Shown piece after piece: positions 1,678-20,046 of a DNA stretch of 24,085 nt. The position numbers were made by a program, and so were the translations under genes. This DNA comes from a virus. The notes under the pieces are model-generated. The model had not been told where the DNA came from. It did no database searches and saw nothing but the letters and a program-made list of their open reading frames with translations. The first letter of the stretch is position 1. Each line of letters starts with the position of its first letter. Where the stretch lies: the IMG/VR virus record IMGVR_UViG_3300042868_002170, positions 1 to 24,085 of that record. The stretch is one strand, 5' to 3'.

Positions 1678-3393
1678 ATGGCACAACACGATATGAATAT
1701 TGCGAATCAGGGTTTCCCTGCATTTCGTTCAGATTTAAACAACGCACTATCAGCAATTCAAACAACTCATTCAGGAACATCAAGACCGACTGGTGCTGTC
1801 GCAGGACAAATTTGGTTAGACACAACTACTGCAACTTCTCCTACTTTAAAATATTATGATGGTGCTGATGACATTTCTTTAGCAACTATTGACCATTCTG
1901 CTAACACAGTAAATTGGTTAGATAGTACAGTTTCAATAACTGGTCTATCAACAACTGCAACTGGCACAGTTTTAACACTTTCAGATTCAGCTTCTACATC
2001 AACAGTAAATTTAATTATAGACAATCAAAAAGAAATTCAATTTAGAGAAACAACAGCTAATGGAACTAACTATGTAGCATTAAAAGCACCAGCTAGTATT
2101 AGTGCTGATTTAACTTTTACTTTACCTGCAACTGATGGAACTAATGGACAAGTATTAACAACAAATGGTTCTGGTGTACTTTCATTCGCAACTCCTGCTT
2201 CTGGTATTTCTTGGCAATCTTCAGTTAAGACTTCTGGTTTTACTGCTGTTGCTGGAGAAGGATATTTTTGTAATACAACTTCATCTGCATTTACAGTAAC
2301 ATTACCTGCAACACCAACTGCTGGACAACAAATTGCTTTAGTAGATTACGCAGGAACTTTTGATACTAATGCACTTACAATAAATCCTAATGGGAATAAA
2401 ATAGAAAGTGGCACAGCTAATTTAGCATTATCTGGTGATAGAGAAGGTGCAACATTAGTTTATATAGATTCAACACAAGGTTGGTTAGCAACATCAGGAA
2501 TTAACGAAGGAACAGATGCTTTATCACCACCACCTTATTCAATAGATTTTTTAGTAATTGCTGGGGGAGGTGGAGGAGGTAGAGTTGCTAGTACTTTTGG
2601 TTGGAGTTCTGGAGCAGGAGGTGGTGCTGGAGGTTATAGAACATCTACTCAAGCAGTTGCATTAGGAACAGTAATTACAGTAACAGTTGGAGATGGTGGT
2701 ACTGGTCAAGCATCAGCACCATCAGGAACTACATCAGCAGTCGCACCAAGTGGTTCAGATTCTTCAATATCAGGTTCAGGATTAACAACTATCACTTCTG
2801 CTGGAGGAGGAGGTGGTGGTTCAGGAAATATTAATGGAGCAAATGGTGGTTCAGGAGGAGGTGCTGGAGCACCAAATTTTACTGGTGGAACTGGTAACAC
2901 TCCTAGCACATCTCCGAGTCAAGGTAATAATGGTGGAAATAGTTCATCAGATGCTTCAGGGGGAGGAGGTGGTGCTGGAGCAGTAGGTGTTACTGGTACT
3001 CAATCTCCATTAGTTGGTGGTGATGGTGGTGCAGGTACAGCTTCTTCAATAACTGGTTCTTCAGTTACAAGAGCAGGTGGAGGTGGAGGTGGTACTTTTG
3101 GTGGTGGAACTGCTGGTTCAGGTGGGTCAGGTGGAGGTGGAAATGCTGGTACTGCTGGTGCTGGTAATAATGGTTCAAATGCCACAGCTAATACTGGTGG
3201 TGGTGGAGGTGGTGGTAGCACTACTCAACCTGCTGGTAATGCATTTGGTGGAGGAAATGGTGGTAAAGGAGTTGTTATATTAAGTATGCCAACAGCTAGT
3301 TACTCATCTACTACAACTGGTTCGCCAACTGTTACAACATCTGGTAGTAATACAATTTTACAATTTAATGGTTCAGGGAGTTACACAGCATAA
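1678..3393 (+). CDS. Glycine-rich tail fibre / receptor-binding protein
   Basis: A 571-aa protein. The N-terminal part (MAQHDMNIANQGFPAFRSDL, then a TSRPTGAVAGQIWLDT motif about residues 35-52) looks like the attachment region common in marine phage fibres. The middle has a beta repeat typical of phage fibres (DLTFTLPATDGTNGQVLTT, about 145-163). From about residue 293 to 530 the chain is dominated by Gly with Ser, Thr, Ala and Asn, including several GGGGGG runs. It ends in KGVVILSMP and a short beta tail finishing GSGSYTA. Glycine-rich fibre tips of this kind are known as adhesins, for example the polyglycine sandwich of T4-like gp38, and here the domain probably binds the host surface. The gene lies directly after the tail-tip gene and 1 nt overlaps the next gene (TAATGG). 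Low complexity makes exact family assignment unsure. Confidence 0.8.
   Translation: MAQHDMNIANQGFPAFRSDLNNALSAIQTTHSGTSRPTGAVAGQIWLDTTTATSPTLKYYDGADDISLATIDHSANTVNWLDSTVSITGLSTTATGTVLTLSDSASTSTVNLIIDNQKEIQFRETTANGTNYVALKAPASISADLTFTLPATDGTNGQVLTTNGSGVLSFATPASGISWQSSVKTSGFTAVAGEGYFCNTTSSAFTVTLPATPTAGQQIALVDYAGTFDTNALTINPNGNKIESGTANLALSGDREGATLVYIDSTQGWLATSGINEGTDALSPPPYSIDFLVIAGGGGGGRVASTFGWSSGAGGGAGGYRTSTQAVALGTVITVTVGDGGTGQASAPSGTTSAVAPSGSDSSISGSGLTTITSAGGGGGGSGNINGANGGSGGGAGAPNFTGGTGNTPSTSPSQGNNGGNSSSDASGGGGGAGAVGVTGTQSPLVGGDGGAGTASSITGSSVTRAGGGGGGTFGGGTAGSGGSGGGGNAGTAGAGNNGSNATANTGGGGGGGSTTQPAGNAFGGGNGGKGVVILSMPTASYSSTTTGSPTVTTSGSNTILQFNGSGSYTA
2557..3276 (+). repeat. Low-complexity GGN/GCN-rich tract encoding polyglycine
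   Basis: About 720 bases are dominated by GGT, GGA and GCT codons and are far richer in G than the surrounding AT-rich sequence. They contain many short near-repeats such as GGTGGTGG and GGAGGAGG. The tract is confined to the C-terminal domain of the fibre gene. Such tracts recombine and slip easily, so length differences between related phages are expected. Confidence 0.75.
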
Positions 3394-3803
3394 TGGCTAG
3401 TTTTGCAAAAATAGGTTTAAATGGAAAAGTGATTGAAGTTCAATCAGTAGTTAATGAAGTATTACATGATGCTAATGGAGTTGAACAAGAATCAATAGGT
3501 ATTGATTTCTTAACTAAATTAACTGGTTGGGCAATTTGGAAACAAACATCTTATAATACACAAGCTGGAGTTCATAAATTTGGAGGAACACCTTTTAGAA
3601 AAAATTTTGCAGGTATAGGATATACTTATGATGAAGATAGAGATGCTTTTATACCACCAAAACCTTTTAAATCTTGGGTATTGAATGAATCTACTTGTCA
3701 ATGGGAAACACCAATTTCTATGCCAACAGAAGAATTAGAAAATAATCAGTATTATTCTTGGAATGAATCTATTATAAATTGGGAGATTAAAACAAAAGAA
3801 TAA
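3393..3803 (+). CDS. Conserved marine-phage fibre-associated protein (136 aa)
   Basis: A 136-aa protein starting MASFAKIGLNGKVIEV. It resembles a small conserved protein often found in marine and cyanophage genomes, with a VxNEVL motif, a WAIWKQTSYNT block (about 46-56), GGTPFRKNFAGIGYTYDEDR (about 64-83) and a W-rich, proline-containing tail. Its biochemical role is not known to me. It begins inside the stop of the fibre gene (TAATGG), so the two are translationally coupled, and the 2OG oxygenase follows after 15 bases with an AAGGAAGG Shine-Dalgarno. A structural or fibre-accessory role is inferred from position only. No signal peptide or membrane segment is visible. Confidence 0.65.
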   Translation: MASFAKIGLNGKVIEVQSVVNEVLHDANGVEQESIGIDFLTKLTGWAIWKQTSYNTQAGVHKFGGTPFRKNFAGIGYTYDEDRDAFIPPKPFKSWVLNESTCQWETPISMPTEELENNQYYSWNESIINWEIKTKE

Positions 3804-3818: not shown

Positions 3819-4424
3819 ATGTCAGAAATAATAAAAATACAAGAACCTAAATTTGAAAATTCATCTTGGAATTTTGAAATAGACCAAATTAATCTTTACG
3901 CATTTTGGAATAACGCATTTACAAAAGAAGAATGTCAAACAATTATTAATATAGCAAAAGACAAAGGTTTAGTTAAAGGAAAAACTAAAGGAGATACAAA
4001 AGATGTAAGAGATTCTAAAATATCTTGGTTATACCCTATTGATAATATGGATTGGGTATTTCGTAGAGTAACTGACATAACATTAAATCTAAATGAAAGA
4101 TTTTTTAAATTTGATTTATTTGGATTAAATGAAGGATTTCAATTTACAAATTATGAAGCACCATCTGGTAAATATGGTAAACATGTTGATAGAGCAATAA
4201 ATATTCCAGTTAGAAAATTATCTATTTCTATTCAATTAACAAATCCTGAAGAATACGAAGGTGGAGAACTTTATTTATATGATGGAGATAAAGGAAACCT
4301 TATGGATAAAAGACAAGGAACTTTAATTATGTTTCCTTCTTATGTATTGCACGAAGTTATGCCAGTAACAAAAGGAGAAAGAAATTCTTTAGTAACTTGG
4401 GTAACTGGCAAACAATTTAAATGA
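3819..4424 (+). CDS. 2-oxoglutarate/Fe(II)-dependent dioxygenase (prolyl-4-hydroxylase-like)
   Basis: A 201-aa protein with the double-stranded beta-helix signature of 2OG-Fe(II) oxygenases. The iron ligands are H122 and D124 in KYGKHVDRA and the distal H178 in SYVLHEVMPV; R188 in TKGERNSLV is placed to bind the 2OG carboxylate. The N-terminal FWNNAFTKEECQTII segment is the usual helix before the core of prolyl-4-hydroxylase-like members. The family hydroxylates proteins or small molecules using O2 and 2-oxoglutarate. It lies directly behind the tail fibre block, so a virion protein or a host surface component are both possible substrates, but the sequence does not show which. The gene overlaps the next by 4 nt (ATGA). 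All expected catalytic residues are present, so it is likely active. Confidence 0.85.
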   Translation: MSEIIKIQEPKFENSSWNFEIDQINLYAFWNNAFTKEECQTIINIAKDKGLVKGKTKGDTKDVRDSKISWLYPIDNMDWVFRRVTDITLNLNERFFKFDLFGLNEGFQFTNYEAPSGKYGKHVDRAINIPVRKLSISIQLTNPEEYEGGELYLYDGDKGNLMDKRQGTLIMFPSYVLHEVMPVTKGERNSLVTWVTGKQFK

Positions 4425-5364: not shown

Positions 5365-6063
5365 ATGAATAAAAGAATCTTAGTTATTTCTGATTTACAT
5401 ATTCCATATCATAGACCAGATTCATTTGAGTTCTTAAAAGAAATTAAAAAACAATACAAGCCAGATACGATTGTAAACATAGGTGATGAGATTGATTGCC
5501 ACGCATTATCGTTCCATGACCACAATCCTGATTTAGCTTCTGCTGGACATGAACTTGTAAGAGCAAAAGATTTTATAAAAGAATTAGAATCAATATTTCC
5601 TGAAATGACTTTGCTAGACTCAAATCATTCTAGTTTAGTTTATCGTAGAGCAATTAAATCAGGAATACCTAGAGGTTATCTAAAAGAATATAACGAGTTC
5701 TTAAATGTTAAAAAATGGAACTGGGTAGATAACTTAACACTAACACTTCCTAATAAACAAAGATGTTTTTTTACTCATGGAATATCTGCTGATGTAACTA
5801 AAGTATCTCAGATTAATGGAATGAGTTGTGTTCAGGGACATTTTCATTCTAAGTTCAAGATTGAATACTGGGCTAATCCTGATGCACTATTTTTTGCTAT
5901 GCAAGTAGGTTGCTTAATACAACAAACTAATATGGCTTTTACTTATTCTAAAAACTTTAAAACAAAATTTCTAATGGGTTGTGGAATGATTATAGATTCT
6001 ACTCCAAGACTTATGCCAATGGTACTTAACAAAGAAGGAAAATGGGTAGGGAAGTTAGTTTAA
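5365..6063 (+). CDS. Calcineurin-like metallophosphoesterase
   Basis: A 232-aa protein with the metallophosphatase metal-site motifs in order: D10-x-H12 (VISDLHIP), G40-D41 (NIGDEID), N87-H88 (SNHSS, where most relatives have GNHE/D), H138-G139 (FFTHGI) and G158-H159-F160-H161 (GHFHS). These residues bind two metal ions and support hydrolysis of phosphomonoesters, phosphodiesters or nucleotides. Phages carry such enzymes in varied contexts, and substrates range from nucleic-acid ends to signalling nucleotides; nothing here singles one out. Its last 22 bases overlap the M15 peptidase gene, so the two are expressed together. All metal ligands appear intact. Confidence 0.85.
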   Translation: MNKRILVISDLHIPYHRPDSFEFLKEIKKQYKPDTIVNIGDEIDCHALSFHDHNPDLASAGHELVRAKDFIKELESIFPEMTLLDSNHSSLVYRRAIKSGIPRGYLKEYNEFLNVKKWNWVDNLTLTLPNKQRCFFTHGISADVTKVSQINGMSCVQGHFHSKFKIEYWANPDALFFAMQVGCLIQQTNMAFTYSKNFKTKFLMGCGMIIDSTPRLMPMVLNKEGKWVGKLV

Positions 6064-7108: not shown

Positions 7109-7528
7109 ATGATTCCAGCTATAACTGCTCTTGCACCTATTATTAATAAAGTTTTTGGAGTAATAGACAAATCTATTACTGATAAAGACTTAGCATTAAA
7201 ATTAAAGAACGATTTGAATATGCAGTTACTTCAATCTGGTACTGAAGAACTAAAAGCTACTGCAAGAATAGTTGAAGCTGAAGCTAAATCAAATTGGTTT
7301 GTAGCATCTTGGAGACCATTACTAATGTATGTATTGATTGCTATTCTAATTTGGAATTTTATTATTAGTCCAATAATCTTAGTCTTATTTAAAATAAATG
7401 CTCAGGTGCTTTTACCTACTGATGTTTGGACATTATTACAAATAGGTTTGGGTGGATATGTGGTTGGTCGTTCAGGAGAATCTATCGCAAGAACTTTAGC
7501 AAATAGACCAGCACAAAAAGATGAATAA
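7109..7528 (+). CDS. Holin, 3TM gene-transfer-release type
   Basis: A 139-aa protein matching the holin family first recognised in gene transfer agents. It has a helical N-terminus ending VEAEAKSNWFVASWRP (the xSWRP or SRWRP motif before the first membrane helix, 67-70), hydrophobic segments at about 71-93 (one or two helices) and 103-121, and a basic tail RSGESIARTLANRP. Such proteins open the inner membrane to release a soluble endolysin. The M15 peptidase upstream lacks an export signal and is the natural partner. The next gene overlaps by 8 nt. Confidence 0.85.
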   Translation: MIPAITALAPIINKVFGVIDKSITDKDLALKLKNDLNMQLLQSGTEELKATARIVEAEAKSNWFVASWRPLLMYVLIAILIWNFIISPIILVLFKINAQVLLPTDVWTLLQIGLGGYVVGRSGESIARTLANRPAQKDE

Positions 7529-9563: not shown

Positions 9564-10301
9564 TTACTTTTCTCCTTTTTGGTTTAGGTAGCGATACATT
9601 TTTAGGCAGGAAATCGCCACATCTTCCTGCATTTCTCCTATTGGAAATTCCTTAATATTTAATTTTCCAGTCTTGGTACAATTAACAATCACACCTTGTT
9701 TAACATCAATCCCAAGTTCTTCTTTAACGCAAATCTTATAAAGATAGATTTGCACTAACATAGAATCTCTTATTCCTGATGATGACTTCCAGTCATAAAT
9801 AATATGCTCTCCTGATTTGTTTTTAAATATAGCATCAAGAGTACCAGTAAATTTATGAATACGACTAAGAACCTTACGTTCAGTAAATACAATCTCTAAA
9901 CCTTCTTGCTTATCGTACCATTCTTTAAACTTACCAAATGACTTTTTAATCTCAGGATTAATAATTTCAGGAACTATTCCTTTATGAATATAATCTTCAA
10001 TTAAATTATGTACGTGTGTTCCAACCGAACCTGCATCTGACATATTTTGGTTTGGTGCTTTTTTAATTTGTTCTGCGATCTTAGTCAGTTCAATTTCATC
10101 ATAGCTAACTCCTGCTCTAATTAACTTCTTAAATTCTTCTGAGCATATTTTAGCTGACCATAAGCCAATAACATTAGCTGGAGTTAATAGTTTTGTAATT
10201 CCAGTAGCACTAGGCAACTGTTCTTCATTCCAAAAGTATTGATGAGCAACTGGGTCAAAGAATAAAGTCTCTTGACCATTGTATAATTTTATTTCTTCCA
10301 T
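9564..10301 (-). CDS. RecB/Cas4-like PD-(D/E)XK exonuclease
   Basis: A 245-aa protein with the RecB-family nuclease motifs in order: G94-T-H-V-H98 (helix GTHVHNLIEDY), E141 after the helical linker, G153-T-L-D156 (FTGTLDAIF), D170-W-K172 (YDWKSSS) and Q184-xxx-Y188 (VQIYLY). These residues form the two-metal site and the trailing helix typical of phage exonucleases that resect DNA ends. Together with the SSB-like protein it suggests a phage recombination or replication-repair module. AAGGGA precedes the ATG. Upstream is a short gap with an operator-like palindrome. Length is normal for the family and no motif is missing. Confidence 0.85.
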   Translation of the reverse strand: MEEIKLYNGQETLFFDPVAHQYFWNEEQLPSATGITKLLTPANVIGLWSAKICSEEFKKLIRAGVSYDEIELTKIAEQIKKAPNQNMSDAGSVGTHVHNLIEDYIHKGIVPEIINPEIKKSFGKFKEWYDKQEGLEIVFTERKVLSRIHKFTGTLDAIFKNKSGEHIIYDWKSSSGIRDSMLVQIYLYKICVKEELGIDVKQGVIVNCTKTGKLNIKEFPIGEMQEDVAISCLKMYRYLNQKGEK

Positions 10302-10376: not shown

Positions 10377-10679
10377 TCAAGCATAAATATCGTACTTAAT
10401 TGTTTTCTTATAATCTGATTTGGTCAAATCGCCAAACAAACTATCAACTGAAACATCAAATATTTTAGCTACTTTATAAACTTGACTAGCTGACATCTGA
10501 TTAGTTGCTAATTCAAACTTACTTACTTGCTGTTCGCAACCTATACCCATCATCTCAGCTAAATCTTTTTGACTCATATATTTAATTTTACCTGACATAG
10601 GCACTTCAACTTTAGTATTGATTCGCAGGTATCTTAAATTACTTGCAAGTCTATTTATTATATCGTGCTTTGTTTCCAT
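10377..10679 (-). CDS. XRE-family HTH transcriptional regulator
   Basis: A 100-aa protein with a Cro/CI-type helix-turn-helix: LASNLRYLR (11-19), MSQKDLAEMMG (35-45, scaffold helix and turn), QVSKFELATN (51-60, recognition helix) and SQVYKVAKIFDVSVDSLFG (65-83). The gene therefore encodes a DNA-binding repressor or activator. GGAAGGA lies four bases before the ATG at 10679, so I use that start rather than the in-frame ATG at 10691. It overlaps the preceding gene by 22 nt. No peptidase or dimerisation domain follows, so it is Cro-sized. With no integrase in view, it more likely times early transcription than lysogeny. Confidence 0.85.
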   Translation of the reverse strand: METKHDIINRLASNLRYLRINTKVEVPMSGKIKYMSQKDLAEMMGIGCEQQVSKFELATNQMSASQVYKVAKIFDVSVDSLFGDLTKSDYKKTIKYDIYA

Positions 10680-10891
10680 AAATCCTTCCATTTTTTATAT
10701 TGGTTCTGCCAGTATTTAGAATTGAAATCAGGATTATGATAAGGAAACTTCTTATAGAATTTATCTAAAGAAATACTCTTATCTTCAACTGAACACAAAT
10801 CATAATAGTATGGTGCTTCATTAGAAGTTATATAACGATTTGTTTTTGATTCTAATAGCAATCTATTTATTTCTTGTTGTACTGTTTTCAT
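10658..10891 (-). CDS. Unknown protein, 77 aa
   Basis: A 77-aa protein starting MKTVQQEINRLLLESKTNRY and rich in Tyr, Trp and Lys at its C-terminus (KFPYHNPDFNSKYWQNQYKK). I do not recognise it. AAAGGAG precedes the ATG with good spacing. It overlaps the XRE regulator by 22 nt, so the pair is translationally linked. The composition is that of a small soluble, possibly nucleic-acid-interacting protein, but no motif supports this. Confidence 0.6.
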   Translation of the reverse strand: MKTVQQEINRLLLESKTNRYITSNEAPYYYDLCSVEDKSISLDKFYKKFPYHNPDFNSKYWQNQYKKWKDLWKQSTI

Positions 10892-10901
10892 ATTTTCTCC
10901 T

Positions 10902-11210
10902 TTAATTTAATAACGAGTGCCCACGATTAATCAGGCATTTTCTAGTATAGTTTTTTCTAGTATCTTCAGCTTTAGACACCACACCTAACGAAGCTGGACG
11001 AAAAATATTATCAATTAGCCATGCTTGAAATTCTTGACTATCTGATAAAGTCTTTTCTGCAAACTTCTCACACAGAATAATATCATTTGTAATATCTTCT
11101 GCTTTAGAATGTGGGAACGTCCCACTTCTGCCAGAAGTATCAACTACTGGTTTATAAGTAGAGCAGTTAGTTATTAATAGTATTAGTATTAAACCTAATA
11201 ATGTTTTCAT
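10902..11210 (-). CDS. Small lipoprotein, 102 aa
   Basis: A signal peptide MKTLLGLILILLITNC ends in a lipobox (LITN-C16), so the mature protein should be lipidated at Cys16. The mature part begins STYKPVVDTSGRSG, has a Cys-containing helix (IILCEKFAEKTLSDS) and a second Cys near the end (KCLINRGHSLLN). This YxPVVD ... C ... CLxxRG plan resembles outer-membrane lipoproteins found in alphaproteobacteria and their phages, here without the glycine zipper many have. In an early leftward operon a lipoprotein could block superinfection or alter the envelope; that is inference. AAGGG precedes the ATG. Confidence 0.7.
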   Translation of the reverse strand: MKTLLGLILILLITNCSTYKPVVDTSGRSGTFPHSKAEDITNDIILCEKFAEKTLSDSQEFQAWLIDNIFRPASLGVVSKAEDTRKNYTRKCLINRGHSLLN

Positions 11211-11397: not shown

Positions 11398-11521
11398 TTG
11401 CCTTCTCCAGTTGTTGTTTCTCTAATCGTTCTTTATATTTCTTTAAAGCTTCTTCCATTTTAACACGCATAACAGAATCGCCTAAAGACTTGCTAAGTTT
11501 TTCTTTATTTGAAAAGTTCAT
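11375..11521 (-). CDS. Small charged helical protein, 48 aa
   Basis: The frame begins MNFSNKEKLSKSLGDSVMRV and continues as a highly charged helix (EEALKKYKERLEKQQLEKAN) to KTKVG. The leader TAGGAAAAATA gives a Shine-Dalgarno. It overlaps the next gene's start by 23 nt and carries that gene's ribosome site. The heptad-like pattern suggests a coiled coil. Function unknown. Confidence 0.5.
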   Translation of the reverse strand: MNFSNKEKLSKSLGDSVMRVKMEEALKKYKERLEKQQLEKANDKTKVG

Positions 11522-11675
11522 TATTTTTCCTACTATTTATAATTTTTTTTAGTTCGTTGTAAATAGCTTTGTCATAGCTAGATACCTTAGAACCTGAGAA
11601 CTCCTGAACAATTAAAAATTTCTTTATAATTGATAAGCAACCTTTTAGTATATCAATATCCACGATTCGTTTCAT
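11505..11675 (-). CDS. Small unknown protein, 56 aa
   Basis: A 56-codon frame MKRIVDIDILKGCLSIIKKF followed by an amphipathic middle (SSYDKAIYNELKKII) and the end NNELFK. It overlaps the 48-aa ORF by 17 nt in the usual leader-to-body manner. No Shine-Dalgarno is visible before the ATG, so it could depend on coupling to the 30-aa peptide gene whose stop lies just upstream. No family recognised. Confidence 0.4.
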   Translation of the reverse strand: MKRIVDIDILKGCLSIIKKFLIVQEFSGSKVSSYDKAIYNELKKIINSRKNNELFK

Positions 11676-11677
11676 AG

Positions 11678-11770
11678 TTAATTAATTATCCAATTTAACA
11701 ATATTATACTTGACGTGCCTAAAACAATCACAATCAAGAACCCTATTCCATCTCTAGTTTCTCTAGTCAT
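11678..11770 (-). CDS. Tiny membrane peptide, 30 aa
   Basis: The frame is MTRETRDGIGFLIVIVLGTS then SIILLNWIIN. A charged N-terminus (RETRD) is followed by about 20 hydrophobic residues, a textbook single membrane helix. GGAG sits 7 bases before the ATG, and the ATGA overlap with the 26-aa peptide gene couples them. Both the signal and the spacing argue that it is translated. Its function is unknown; small phage membrane peptides often affect host envelope or lysis timing. Confidence 0.5.
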   Translation of the reverse strand: MTRETRDGIGFLIVIVLGTSSIILLNWIIN

Positions 11771-11847
11771 TTAATACTCCATAAAATGTAAGTTATTATT
11801 ACTGCCAACATAAACCACCAACCCATATCATTTATCATTTCAAGCAT
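11767..11847 (-). CDS. Tiny membrane peptide, 26 aa
   Basis: The frame is MLEMINDMGWWFMLAVIITY then ILWSIK. A short acidic start is followed by a Trp-bracketed hydrophobic helix. AAGGA lies 7 bases upstream inside the end of the 50-aa gene, which it overlaps by 8 nt. The following peptide gene starts in the ATGA of its stop. It is very short, but the double coupling and the Shine-Dalgarno make translation plausible. Confidence 0.45.
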   Translation of the reverse strand: MLEMINDMGWWFMLAVIITYILWSIK

Positions 11848-11992
11848 TTTTAAATCCTTGTTTAGTTAGCATACCATTTAGTTTTGAAATTAGATTAAAG
11901 ATACGTTTCTTTGTATGCTCTCCTCTAATTTCATTGTCCAATAAGATTCTTGAAAGTACAGCGACCATCATTTTCATTTCAAAGTAAGTCAT
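11840..11992 (-). CDS. Small unknown protein, about 50 aa (start revised)
   Basis: The longest frame would start at 12052 (70 aa), but its first 20 residues overlap a 29-aa ORF. An AGGAG lies about 11 bases before the ATG at 11992, giving MTYFEMKMMVAVLSRILLDN and then a basic helix with KKRIFNLISKLNGML and the end GFKNA. The protein is helical with hydrophobic faces and is not obviously membrane-bound. If the longer form is correct the N-terminus is MGLLWKLIKMQKKE. No family recognised. Confidence 0.45.
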   Translation of the reverse strand: MTYFEMKMMVAVLSRILLDNEIRGEHTKKRIFNLISKLNGMLTKQGFKNA

Positions 11993-14846: not shown

Positions 14847-15464
14847 ATGAACACAAATATACTTAGTATAAAACTATGGGACTATTCTATTATTTGTTTA
14901 TTCTTATTTTTTGTATTTGTTGCTGGTACATTTTTTCCGAATCCTAGTATCAAAGAAAAAATTAGAAATAGCACTATTGAAGAAATCAGGAAGATAGGTT
15001 CTTTTTATGAACCTAAAGTAGAAACTATGTCTAGCGAAAGGTTTATATCATCAATGCAGAAATGTATTGCTTTTCATAACCTAGACATAAGGAAGGAACA
15101 GCAAATCCCAACAGCATTAATAATAGCACAAGCAATCGTAGAGAGTAATTTTGGTACATCAAGATTTGCAACAGAAGGTGGAAATTTATTTGGCATAAGA
15201 GTATGGTCTAAGAATGGAATGTTGCCACTTAAACAAGACCCATCAATAAACTGGAGAGTAAAAACATACAAAACTAAATGCCAGTCAGTTAAAGATTACA
15301 TAAACATATTAAACAATAATCATCATTACGCAGAATTTAGAATGGTAAGAAGCAGAACAAAAGACCCAATGATATTAGCAGATACACTAGATAATTTTAG
15401 CACTAGTAAAGAATACGCAAATCATGTTAAGCAGATATTAGTTAAATACAAAGGCAAGTTATGA
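14847..15464 (+). CDS. Membrane-anchored GH73 glucosaminidase (Bax-like)
   Basis: A 205-aa protein. Residues 12-30 (DYSIICLFLFFVFVAGTFF) form a signal anchor. The catalytic domain begins around residue 75: IPTALIIAQAIVESNFGTSR with Glu99 as the likely catalytic acid, GGNLFGIRVW (111-120) and a C-terminal half with NWRVKTYKTKCQSVKDYINI. This is the glucosaminidase pattern (GH73, PF01832-type) seen in Bax-like proteins and phage wall hydrolases. The anchor places it in the periplasm without a holin. It is a second wall-cutting enzyme besides the M15 peptidase. Its start may be controlled by the hairpin just upstream. Confidence 0.8.
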   Translation: MNTNILSIKLWDYSIICLFLFFVFVAGTFFPNPSIKEKIRNSTIEEIRKIGSFYEPKVETMSSERFISSMQKCIAFHNLDIRKEQQIPTALIIAQAIVESNFGTSRFATEGGNLFGIRVWSKNGMLPLKQDPSINWRVKTYKTKCQSVKDYINILNNNHHYAEFRMVRSRTKDPMILADTLDNFSTSKEYANHVKQILVKYKGKL

Positions 15465-17285: not shown

Positions 17286-17416
17286 TTGATAAGAAGCAAC
17301 GAGGGTCTAACGATCTTGAAATAATTATTTACGAACTTAAAAAAGAAATAGACAGATTAAACGAGGAACTTCAGATCAAAGAAATAGAGTTAAAAAAACT
17401 AAGAGACAATGATTAA
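17282..17416 (+). CDS. Small coiled-coil protein, 44 aa
   Basis: The frame is MIDKKQRGSNDLEIIIYELK, then a heptad-patterned helix KEIDRLNEELQIKEIELKKL ending RDND. It starts in the ATGA of the preceding gene and ends 8 nt inside the glycosyltransferase gene. The spacing of I/L residues clearly suggests a coiled coil. It may be a small partner protein. No other function can be read. Confidence 0.5.
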   Translation: MIDKKQRGSNDLEIIIYELKKEIDRLNEELQIKEIELKKLRDND

Positions 17417-18071
17417 TGTCTTTATTGGTTATGATAGCAAAGAGAAAATAGCTTATCATATACTAGTTGAGAGCATACTAAGACATAGTTCAGTACCAGT
17501 TAGATTTACACCACTATACCTACCAAACCTAAAAGACTCATTCACAAGACCAAGAAACAGTTTATCATCTACCGAGTTCTCATTTAGTAGATTTATAGTT
17601 CCTTACCTTATGGATTACAAAGGTTGGGCATTATTTTTAGACTGCGATATGCTGTTTACTTCTGACATCAAAGAGTTATGGGATTTAAGAAATGATGATT
17701 ATGCAGTTATGGTTTGTCAGCATGATTACATTCCAAAGCATTTATCTAAGTTCGGCAATCAAATACAAACTGTCTATGAAAAAAAGAACTGGTCTAGTTT
17801 AATGCTAATGAATACAGATAAATGCAAACAGCTTACAAAAGAATATGTAGATACTGCATCAGGGTTAGAACTTCATCAATTCAAATGGACTGATAAGGTT
17901 GGTGGTTTACCTTTAGAATGGAATTGGTTAGTTGGCGAATATCCATACAATCCTAAAGCTAAAAACATACACTTTACAGAAGGTGGTTGTTACTTTGAAA
18001 AGTATGAGAACTGCGATTACTCAAAAGATTGGTTTAATATTTATACGAATACAGTTAAGATACAATTATGA
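17409..18071 (+). CDS. GT-A-type glycosyltransferase (family 8-like)
   Basis: A 220-aa protein. MINVFIGYDSKEKIAYHILV is a nucleotide-sugar-binding start with the YDS/ExxAY motif seen in GT8-like enzymes. D78-C-D80 in WALFLDCDMLF is the metal-binding DxD. EWNWLVGEYPYNPKAKNIHF (about 169-188) corresponds to the H-containing acceptor or leaving-group region. The fold transfers a sugar from an activated donor, retaining-type if truly GT8. Its 4-nt overlap with the next glycosyltransferase shows that they act in the same pathway. Acceptor unknown: host polysaccharide or phage DNA or virion. Confidence 0.75.
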   Translation: MINVFIGYDSKEKIAYHILVESILRHSSVPVRFTPLYLPNLKDSFTRPRNSLSSTEFSFSRFIVPYLMDYKGWALFLDCDMLFTSDIKELWDLRNDDYAVMVCQHDYIPKHLSKFGNQIQTVYEKKNWSSLMLMNTDKCKQLTKEYVDTASGLELHQFKWTDKVGGLPLEWNWLVGEYPYNPKAKNIHFTEGGCYFEKYENCDYSKDWFNIYTNTVKIQL

Positions 18072-18667
18072 AAGCTTTTGTAACTGGTGCTAATAGAGAC
18101 TTCATAGACATACTAGATTGGTTCTTAGAAGGTTATCACAAGCATATTAAGATTCCATTATACATAGCTAACTTTGGTATGCTTAAAAAATATCCAAACG
18201 AACTTATGGTTGCAACAGATGATAGAACTTGGTTCTATAAACCTAAAGCTATAATGCAAGTTCCTGCAACACAAATAATCTGGTTAGATTGCGACATAGA
18301 AATCAAAGAAGATATATCTGATATGTTTGATATGATTAAAGATGATTACCTACTATCTAAAGATCATGCAGTTAGAACTGACAGATGGCAAACTGGTATT
18401 GTAGGTATCAAAGATAAGAAGGTATTAGACAAATGGTTTGACAGATGCGAGATGAGACAAGAACGATCAGATCAAGAAGCATTTAACAAAGTAGCACATG
18501 AGTTTAAGATCAATAGATTACCTGACAATTATCATGGTTTAAGATTAGGCAAGAATAATGATATAGCTAAAACAATACATTGGACTGGAGAAGATGGAAA
18601 AGAAATTATTAGAAAAAAGATTCGTGAGTCAATGCAGGAATCCAAACATAGTCTCAGTACCAATTAA
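18068..18667 (+). CDS. Second GT-A-fold glycosyltransferase
   Basis: A 199-aa protein. QIIWLDCDIEIKEDISDMFD has D74-C-D76, the DxD metal motif, at the same position as in the upstream protein; upstream segments (MKAFVTGANRDFIDILDWFL) are beta-alpha like. RTDRWQTGIVGIKDKK (about 103-118) and RSDQEAFNKVAHEF (about 133-146, the usual DQ pair) and HWTGEDGK near the end fit nucleotide-sugar transferases. It could be a diverged partner that adds the next sugar. Its last 73 nt overlap the ParB/methyltransferase ORF. Confidence 0.65.
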   Translation: MKAFVTGANRDFIDILDWFLEGYHKHIKIPLYIANFGMLKKYPNELMVATDDRTWFYKPKAIMQVPATQIIWLDCDIEIKEDISDMFDMIKDDYLLSKDHAVRTDRWQTGIVGIKDKKVLDKWFDRCEMRQERSDQEAFNKVAHEFKINRLPDNYHGLRLGKNNDIAKTIHWTGEDGKEIIRKKIRESMQESKHSLSTN

Positions 18668-19508
18668 GTTCATTAAGTATTCAAATCAATTTGACAAACA
18701 TAATTGGCTTAGTCTCAAAGTAAGATCAGAACGAGATAACTTATACCTGAATGATAATCTAGCTAAACGCAGATTAAAAACATTACCTGAGATTGATAAT
18801 CTATTTAATCCTTTAATACTTTGGGCTAGTGATTATTTGATCTGCATATTCGGCAACAAAAGACTAAAGACAGCTATTGATAAAGGTTACACGCATATAG
18901 ACTGTTTAATCTACACAAACTTAGATAGAGCAGTAAGAGTAGGCACAAGTATTTGGAATACTTTTAAACAGAACAAACTATCTAAAGTTGATTATTTATT
19001 AACAACTGATAATCAGGGCATTACAGATATTTCTAAATATATGGTGGAAGAAAAACAATTCATAGACATTTACGCAACACACCAACAGATACTTGTAAGA
19101 GAAGCTTTAAAGTCTAACGAAGATATAATGGAAACTGGTTGTGGTTATTATTCTACACCATTATTAGTTGAGATAGCAAAAGCTAAAAGAATTAAATTAA
19201 TATCATTTGTCCAAGAGATTAACTGGGCTAGAAGATTTGACTATTTAATCGGTTCACATTATCAGCAAATACAAATAGATTTTGCAAAAGAAATACCATT
19301 AACACAAAGGTTTGGAATGTGCTTATTAGATCACGAACAATTAGTTAAAGATAGAATTAAACATCTTAATCATATTCTAAAGCACACAGATACAGTTGTA
19401 ATACATGATGCAGATATAGTTCAGTCATTTAACTTCCTGCACAAACCACATACGATTGAAATGCACAAACACTTAACACCAAACACAGCAGTAATTAGAA
19501 ATGTTTAA
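18594..19508 (+). CDS. ParB-like domain fused to class I methyltransferase
   Basis: A 304-aa protein with two parts. Residues 20-115 resemble the ParB/Srx nuclease-like fold: IVSVPIKFIKYSNQ, NPLILWASDYLICIFGNKR with GNKR87-90, LKTAIDKGYTHIDCLIY. Residues 150-304 carry methyltransferase signatures: METGCGYYSTPLL (179-191, SAM motif I), LLDHEQLVKDRIKHL (244-258) and DTVVIHDAD (266-274), as in CmcI or MTase_24-like enzymes. The start is uncertain: ATG 18594 has GGAG, but GTG 18624 is also possible, starting MSQCRNPNIVSVPI. Context suggests methylation of a sugar or surface polymer, although ParB fusions are commonly linked to DNA methyltransferases. Confidence 0.6.
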   Translation: MEKKLLEKRFVSQCRNPNIVSVPIKFIKYSNQFDKHNWLSLKVRSERDNLYLNDNLAKRRLKTLPEIDNLFNPLILWASDYLICIFGNKRLKTAIDKGYTHIDCLIYTNLDRAVRVGTSIWNTFKQNKLSKVDYLLTTDNQGITDISKYMVEEKQFIDIYATHQQILVREALKSNEDIMETGCGYYSTPLLVEIAKAKRIKLISFVQEINWARRFDYLIGSHYQQIQIDFAKEIPLTQRFGMCLLDHEQLVKDRIKHLNHILKHTDTVVIHDADIVQSFNFLHKPHTIEMHKHLTPNTAVIRNV

Positions 19509-20046
19509 TCCTTACGAATACTTTAAAGGCAAGAATGTTTTACTCATAGGTAATGGTGAGAAGATAAACCAGATTGATTATTCTAAATACAATTCAATAG
19601 TTAGAATGAATCTTGGAGTTCAAGATAAACCATGTGATGTATGGATTAACAATCTAGTGTACGAGGGACATAATATGCTCAAAGAGATTCCTGATATACG
19701 TTGCATTGTAAGACTTAACTTTGAAAAAGATGGTAAGAGAGCAGAACGTATGCCTGACTGGGTTAAGAAAAAAGCTTGGTTATGGAATGTGTTTGAATAC
19801 AATCAAATGACAATTAGGTATAACTATTATAGACCAACGACTGGCTTTGTAGCAATCTATTGGCTACTCAATCATTGTCAATGCAAAGTAACTATTACAG
19901 CATTTGATTTCTTTAAAACTAAGAATAGATATACAATGGAAGAAGTACAACACATTGGAACTTCTAAAGGATATAACCATGATGTTAAGTTAGAAGAAGA
20001 TGTTATTACAAAGTTACTTCAAAGAGGAATTATAAATGCCATTTAG
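19501..20046 (+). CDS. Glycosyltransferase family 29-like (sialyltransferase-like)
   Basis: A 181-aa protein. KNVLLIGNGEKINQIDYSKY (11-30, GNG motif), SIVRMNLGV (32-40), RPTTGFVAIYWLL (111-123) and ITAFDFF (132-138), followed by H160-D161 and EED166-167, are arranged as the S and L motifs of GT29-like enzymes. In this family CMP-sialic acid or a related sugar is transferred to glycans. It shares 8 nt with the preceding ORF and 11 nt with TerL, so it is built into the packaging transcript. The similarity is motif-level, and donor specificity cannot be read. Confidence 0.65.
   Translation: MFNPYEYFKGKNVLLIGNGEKINQIDYSKYNSIVRMNLGVQDKPCDVWINNLVYEGHNMLKEIPDIRCIVRLNFEKDGKRAERMPDWVKKKAWLWNVFEYNQMTIRYNYYRPTTGFVAIYWLLNHCQCKVTITAFDFFKTKNRYTMEEVQHIGTSKGYNHDVKLEEDVITKLLQRGIINAI

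Follow-up and report, generated by a model that had tools for sequence, protein, structure and literature searches.

Two overlapping genes for small, predicted membrane peptides in the leftward operon of a likely SAR11-type phage

Organization of the locus

The window, i.e., the whole stretch of DNA analyzed, comprises an entire virus record of 24,085 bases. Two small genes, here termed A and B, are located on its minus strand (Table 1); the original prediction of two minus-strand peptide ORFs of 26 and 30 aa sharing an ATGA overlap was correct in positions, lengths and overlap. The head of B is conserved as M[TSN][RK]E[TN][KR][DE]G. ORFs are tightly packed around A and B: the stop of p50 reaches 8 nt into the start of A, and B is separated from p56 by 2 nt. 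Some relatives (L009, L019 and L038) have an unrelated ORF in place of p50, with A still directly following.

The leftward operon has the order p215-p89-p29-p50-A-B-p56-p48-p76-lipoprotein-p77-HTH-exonuclease and onward. A and B share this operon with the HTH regulator and the exonuclease, apart from the holin and endolysin genes, which are encoded on the opposite strand. Because of the presence of the HTH regulator (phrog_8) and the exonuclease (phrog_298), the operon is probably an early one. A consensus promoter scan yielded promoter-like sites in numbers no higher than in shuffles, which thus lend no support to early timing.

Table 1. Features of the window that bear on genes A and B
Feature	Position	Strand	Description
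Exonuclease	9564..10301	-	operon of A and B; phrog_298, E 3.5e-28
HTH transcriptional regulator	10377..10691	-	operon of A and B; phrog_8, E 8e-9
Small lipoprotein	10902..11210	-	operon of A and B; lipobox Cys16, invariant DxxGRxG, Cys47/Cys92
p56	11505..11675	-	ORF downstream of B, conserved neighbor
Gene B	11678..11770	-	30 aa; MTRETRDGIGFLIVIVLGTSSIILLNWIIN; charged head and one hydrophobic helix reaching the C-terminus
ATGA start/stop overlap	11767..11770	-	A with B
Gene A	11767..11847	-	26 aa; MLEMINDMGWWFMLAVIITYILWSIK; short acidic N-terminus MLEMINDMG and one hydrophobic helix
Shine-Dalgarno of B	11777..11780	-	GGAG, 6 nt before B
p50	11840..11992	-	ORF upstream of A
Shine-Dalgarno of A	11855..11859	-	AAGGA, 7 nt before A
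Holin	7109-7528	+	phrog_3427
Endolysin	14847-15464	+	

Predicted membrane helices

A single hydrophobic helix of sufficient length to span a membrane was found in each of the two peptides by hydrophobicity scales and, for B, by an AF2 model (single helix 3-29, pLDDT 96), which bears out the one membrane helix apiece that had been claimed. With -12.3 on the Wimley-White octanol scale, A is strongly hydrophobic; on another scale its helix is borderline in the window and clearer in some relatives. The window contains 49 ATG-initiated ORFs of 24-40 aa; of these, B alone passed a strict helix cut-off (<2) as well as a check for a Shine-Dalgarno sequence, and A, which has a Shine-Dalgarno sequence, fell narrowly outside that cut-off with a value of 2.17. 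Short hydrophobic ORFs are frequent in AT-rich DNA, and seven of the 49 pass a helix cut-off, as would fit a reading of the A and B frames as chance ORFs or leader elements that yield no functional peptide; the comparison with relatives given below bears directly on this reading.

Conservation and selection among relatives

Relatives were gathered by two IMG/VR scans and one degenerate-pattern scan. The A/B pair was present in 105 IMG/VR loci, which reduce to 52 distinct regions at the DNA level and to 42 distinct pairs of A and B proteins. Both genes occur in 61 of the 62 loci with sufficient upstream sequence, the exception (L056) being the most diverged relative. Stop codons or frameshifts in the two frames, which had been named beforehand as the observation that would speak against the genes, were looked for in the 52 distinct regions and found in none: A and B are intact and hold the same operon position in all of them, and internal stops are still absent where protein identity is as low as 0.33 (A) and 0.27 (B). 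A is 26-28 aa in length and B 30 aa (27 aa in L041 and L045). The ATGA (-4) overlap is retained in 49 regions, and in the remaining three 148 or 315 nt are inserted between an intact A and an intact B.

Estimated from disjoint close pairs, dN/dS was 0.26 for A (bootstrap 0.15-0.44) and 0.33 for B (bootstrap 0.20-0.47), similar to the values of neighboring genes (0.15-0.35). Synonymous-biased substitution, suggested earlier as a check on the pair in related phages, is present in both genes and supports them. When the frames were shifted as a control, this DNA gave dN/dS values of 1 or more (1.2-2.2), with stops in nearly every sequence. The constraint spans both peptides except for the final three codons of B. 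With a conserved frame and purifying selection in relatives, A and B behave as protein-coding micropeptides; they are real genes and not a chance pair of ORFs. The reading as chance ORFs or leader elements is refuted by the frame-specific purifying selection and by the 52 of 52 intact frames, and is regarded as extremely improbable.

The claim that each gene has its own Shine-Dalgarno sequence holds in the window, but among the relatives it extends to B in 50 of 52 regions and to A in only 19 of 52. Most A starts without such a sequence share 7-8 nt with the stop of the ORF before them.

Searches for known families and comparison with known systems

Neither peptide matched a family in PHROGs or a relevant one in Pfam, a tblastn search of A and B against 50,697 GenBank phage records returned nothing even at an E-value of 10, and a nucleotide search against GenBank phages gave no match. 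A literature search found no description of the two peptides, in line with the claim that they are undescribed. A degenerate DNA pattern for B run against IMG/VR matched, beyond the clade, unrelated ORFs only (L090, L112, L119, L120, L122 and L131). Small phage proteins are already known as a class (PMC11323111). Judged from these searches, A and B apparently form a new gene family, its general kind being known.

One-helix peptides with short charged heads fit antiholin or pinholin-like action. A and/or B might accordingly be antiholin-like or holin-like and time lysis together with the dedicated holin, and with this phage a holin and an endolysin are available for regulation; a role in lysis control is nevertheless quite unlikely, as a holin is already present, neither peptide has similarity to any lysis family, and both genes lie outside the lysis cassette, in an opposite-strand operon with a regulator and an exonuclease.

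Type I toxins are described as small hydrophobic inner-membrane peptides able to affect ion flow (PMC8309996, PMC11997105). A and B resemble TisB and ShoB in size and in having one hydrophobic helix, and might in the same manner depolarize the membrane and halt host growth or energy metabolism. This seems rather improbable, since A and B, unlike TisB and ShoB, are embedded in a tightly packed polycistronic operon, the promoter scan, with its promoter-like sites not above shuffles, gave no evidence of an antisense antitoxin RNA, and synonymous diversity in A is not depressed relative to its neighbors.

Imm and Spackle of phage T4 are early superinfection-exclusion proteins (PMC7677548). They are functional analogs only and not relatives of A and B, for which no homology to a known superinfection-exclusion family was found in PHROGs or relevant Pfam families; Spackle is a periplasmic protein, whereas A and B are tiny one-helix peptides. 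Llp of phage T5 is presented as a superinfection-exclusion lipoprotein (PMC9586334). The lipoprotein encoded near A and B is likewise a small phage lipoprotein outside the lysis genes, again a functional analogy, with no sequence or fold link to Llp: its model is of low confidence (pLDDT 68), and a PDB search gave no significant fold match.

Phage group and host

The terminase is nearest to those of the Pelagibacter phages HTVC026P, HTVC202P and HTVC111P (56%), and among cultured phages the lipoprotein has four matches only, all of them in phages of Pelagibacter. Together these similarities make a SAR11-type host likely. We infer a freshwater origin for the clade. An exonuclease-based provirus search of bacterial genomes, which could have pointed directly to a host, found no relative. 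An integrase was looked for in five long relatives and not found; the group is probably one of lytic, SAR11-type phages. Upstream of the large terminase (17409-20046, plus strand) the window contains ORFs that by sequence look resemble glycosyltransferase and methyltransferase genes; in phage DSL-LC06, too, glycan genes are annotated upstream of the large terminase.

The same operon slot in other relatives

HTVC202P (3396-3494, minus strand; L085) and HTVC111P (3274-3369, minus strand; L086) each carry an unannotated one-helix ORF of 31-32 aa with a strong Shine-Dalgarno sequence. Like A and B, this peptide has one hydrophobic helix and start/stop overlaps with its neighbors, and its gene belongs to the same operon and precedes the same lipoprotein-HTH-exonuclease cassette; unlike A and B, it is a single peptide, and it has no recognizable sequence similarity to either. 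A pattern scan found this marine peptide in 27 contigs, and it is present in seven of the nine loci that were fetched independently via the lipoprotein and extend sufficiently far upstream. Its dN/dS of 1.03 refers to 15 codons only, the remaining codons being fixed by the search pattern. In HTVC112P a similar peptide lies inside an annotated longer ORF, and HTVC026P has the lipoprotein and no such one-helix peptide. The most diverged relative, L056, encodes two other hydrophobic peptides of 29 aa, one in the A/B slot (3915-4004, plus strand) and one between the HTH regulator and the exonuclease (5852-5941, plus strand). These peptides are too short for homology among them to be judged, and their occurrence suggests that the operon contains a functional slot for one-helix peptides.

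In a further reading, A and B are membrane anchors or modulators that serve phage replication or a host metabolic membrane complex, much as small accessory subunits do in bacteria, and have nothing to do with exclusion. The constraint on both peptides, from which the final three codons of B are exempt, and the DNA-metabolism genes in the same operon are in line with it. A conserved complex partner predicts more conservation than is seen: the slot peptide, in contrast to the exonuclease and the lipoprotein, is not recognizably conserved between the freshwater group and the marine one, and this divergence counts against an anchoring or modulating role, which is considered unlikely.

Two genes rather than one module

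The original prediction treated A and B as one two-peptide module, which is borne out as far as the pair stays together in the clade (61 of the 62 loci). The correlation of pairwise protein distances between A and B was 0.38, and that of A or B with other operon genes reached 0.46; lying inside the range of the neighbors, the A-B value gives no specific signal of co-evolution. Associations of sequence types between B and A (p=0.01) and between B and the lipoprotein (0 of 2000 shuffles) are not corrected for relatedness and were not counted as evidence of interaction. An obligate module was rejected in the absence of excess co-variation and in view of the helix half of B having been replaced with A and p56 unchanged, of the DNA inserted between A and B in three relatives, and of the single peptide in the marine relatives. 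The best description of the pair is that of two small effectors, separate from each other but coupled in translation.

The replacement in B is seen in two relatives, L030 and L054, which are near-identical across p50, A, p56 and p48. The helix half of B differs between them from about codon 11, and the lipoprotein diverges immediately after the lipobox, in its mature part; over about 900 bases these two segments are the chief blocks of divergence. The mature domain of the lipoprotein is swapped again among the otherwise near-identical phages L007, L008 and L009; such an exchange is what a specificity determinant might show. Swaps also affect p56 and p48, which indicates mosaicism across the whole operon, with B and the lipoprotein taking part, and makes the swaps of these two weak pointers to exclusion specificity.

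Proposed function

A and B are tentatively proposed, at somewhat less than an even chance, to be translated, early inner-membrane micropeptides that act as separate effectors on the infected cell's envelope. As the gene content of the operon suggests, they would be produced early in infection and would insert into the host inner membrane, the charged head of B probably facing the cytoplasm, to judge from a topology read from a very short segment. There they might bind envelope proteins of the host or of an incoming phage and so condition the envelope. The start/stop overlaps could tune the relative dose of A and B through coupled translation, and the two would be co-expressed without forming one obligate complex; in relatives, other one-helix peptides would fill the same operon slot. 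Another envelope product, the lipoprotein, is made from the same operon, which speaks for a role of A and B at the envelope. Superinfection exclusion would be their single most likely task. The original prediction likewise pointed to superinfection control, or else to host takeover, which like the early timing would follow from gene content.

A more far-reaching version, in which the operon serves SAR11-type phages as an envelope-exclusion cassette with swappable alleles, its interchangeable one-helix inner-membrane micropeptides and the exchangeable mature domain of its lipoprotein jointly setting which competing phages are excluded, is very doubtful.

Significance

Genes that fall under the usual annotation cut-offs are shown here to be conserved, and frame-resolved selection in metagenomic relatives can raise ORFs of 26 aa from guess to gene. 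The unannotated counterpart in the cultured phages HTVC111P and HTVC202P makes the question of what such peptides do testable.
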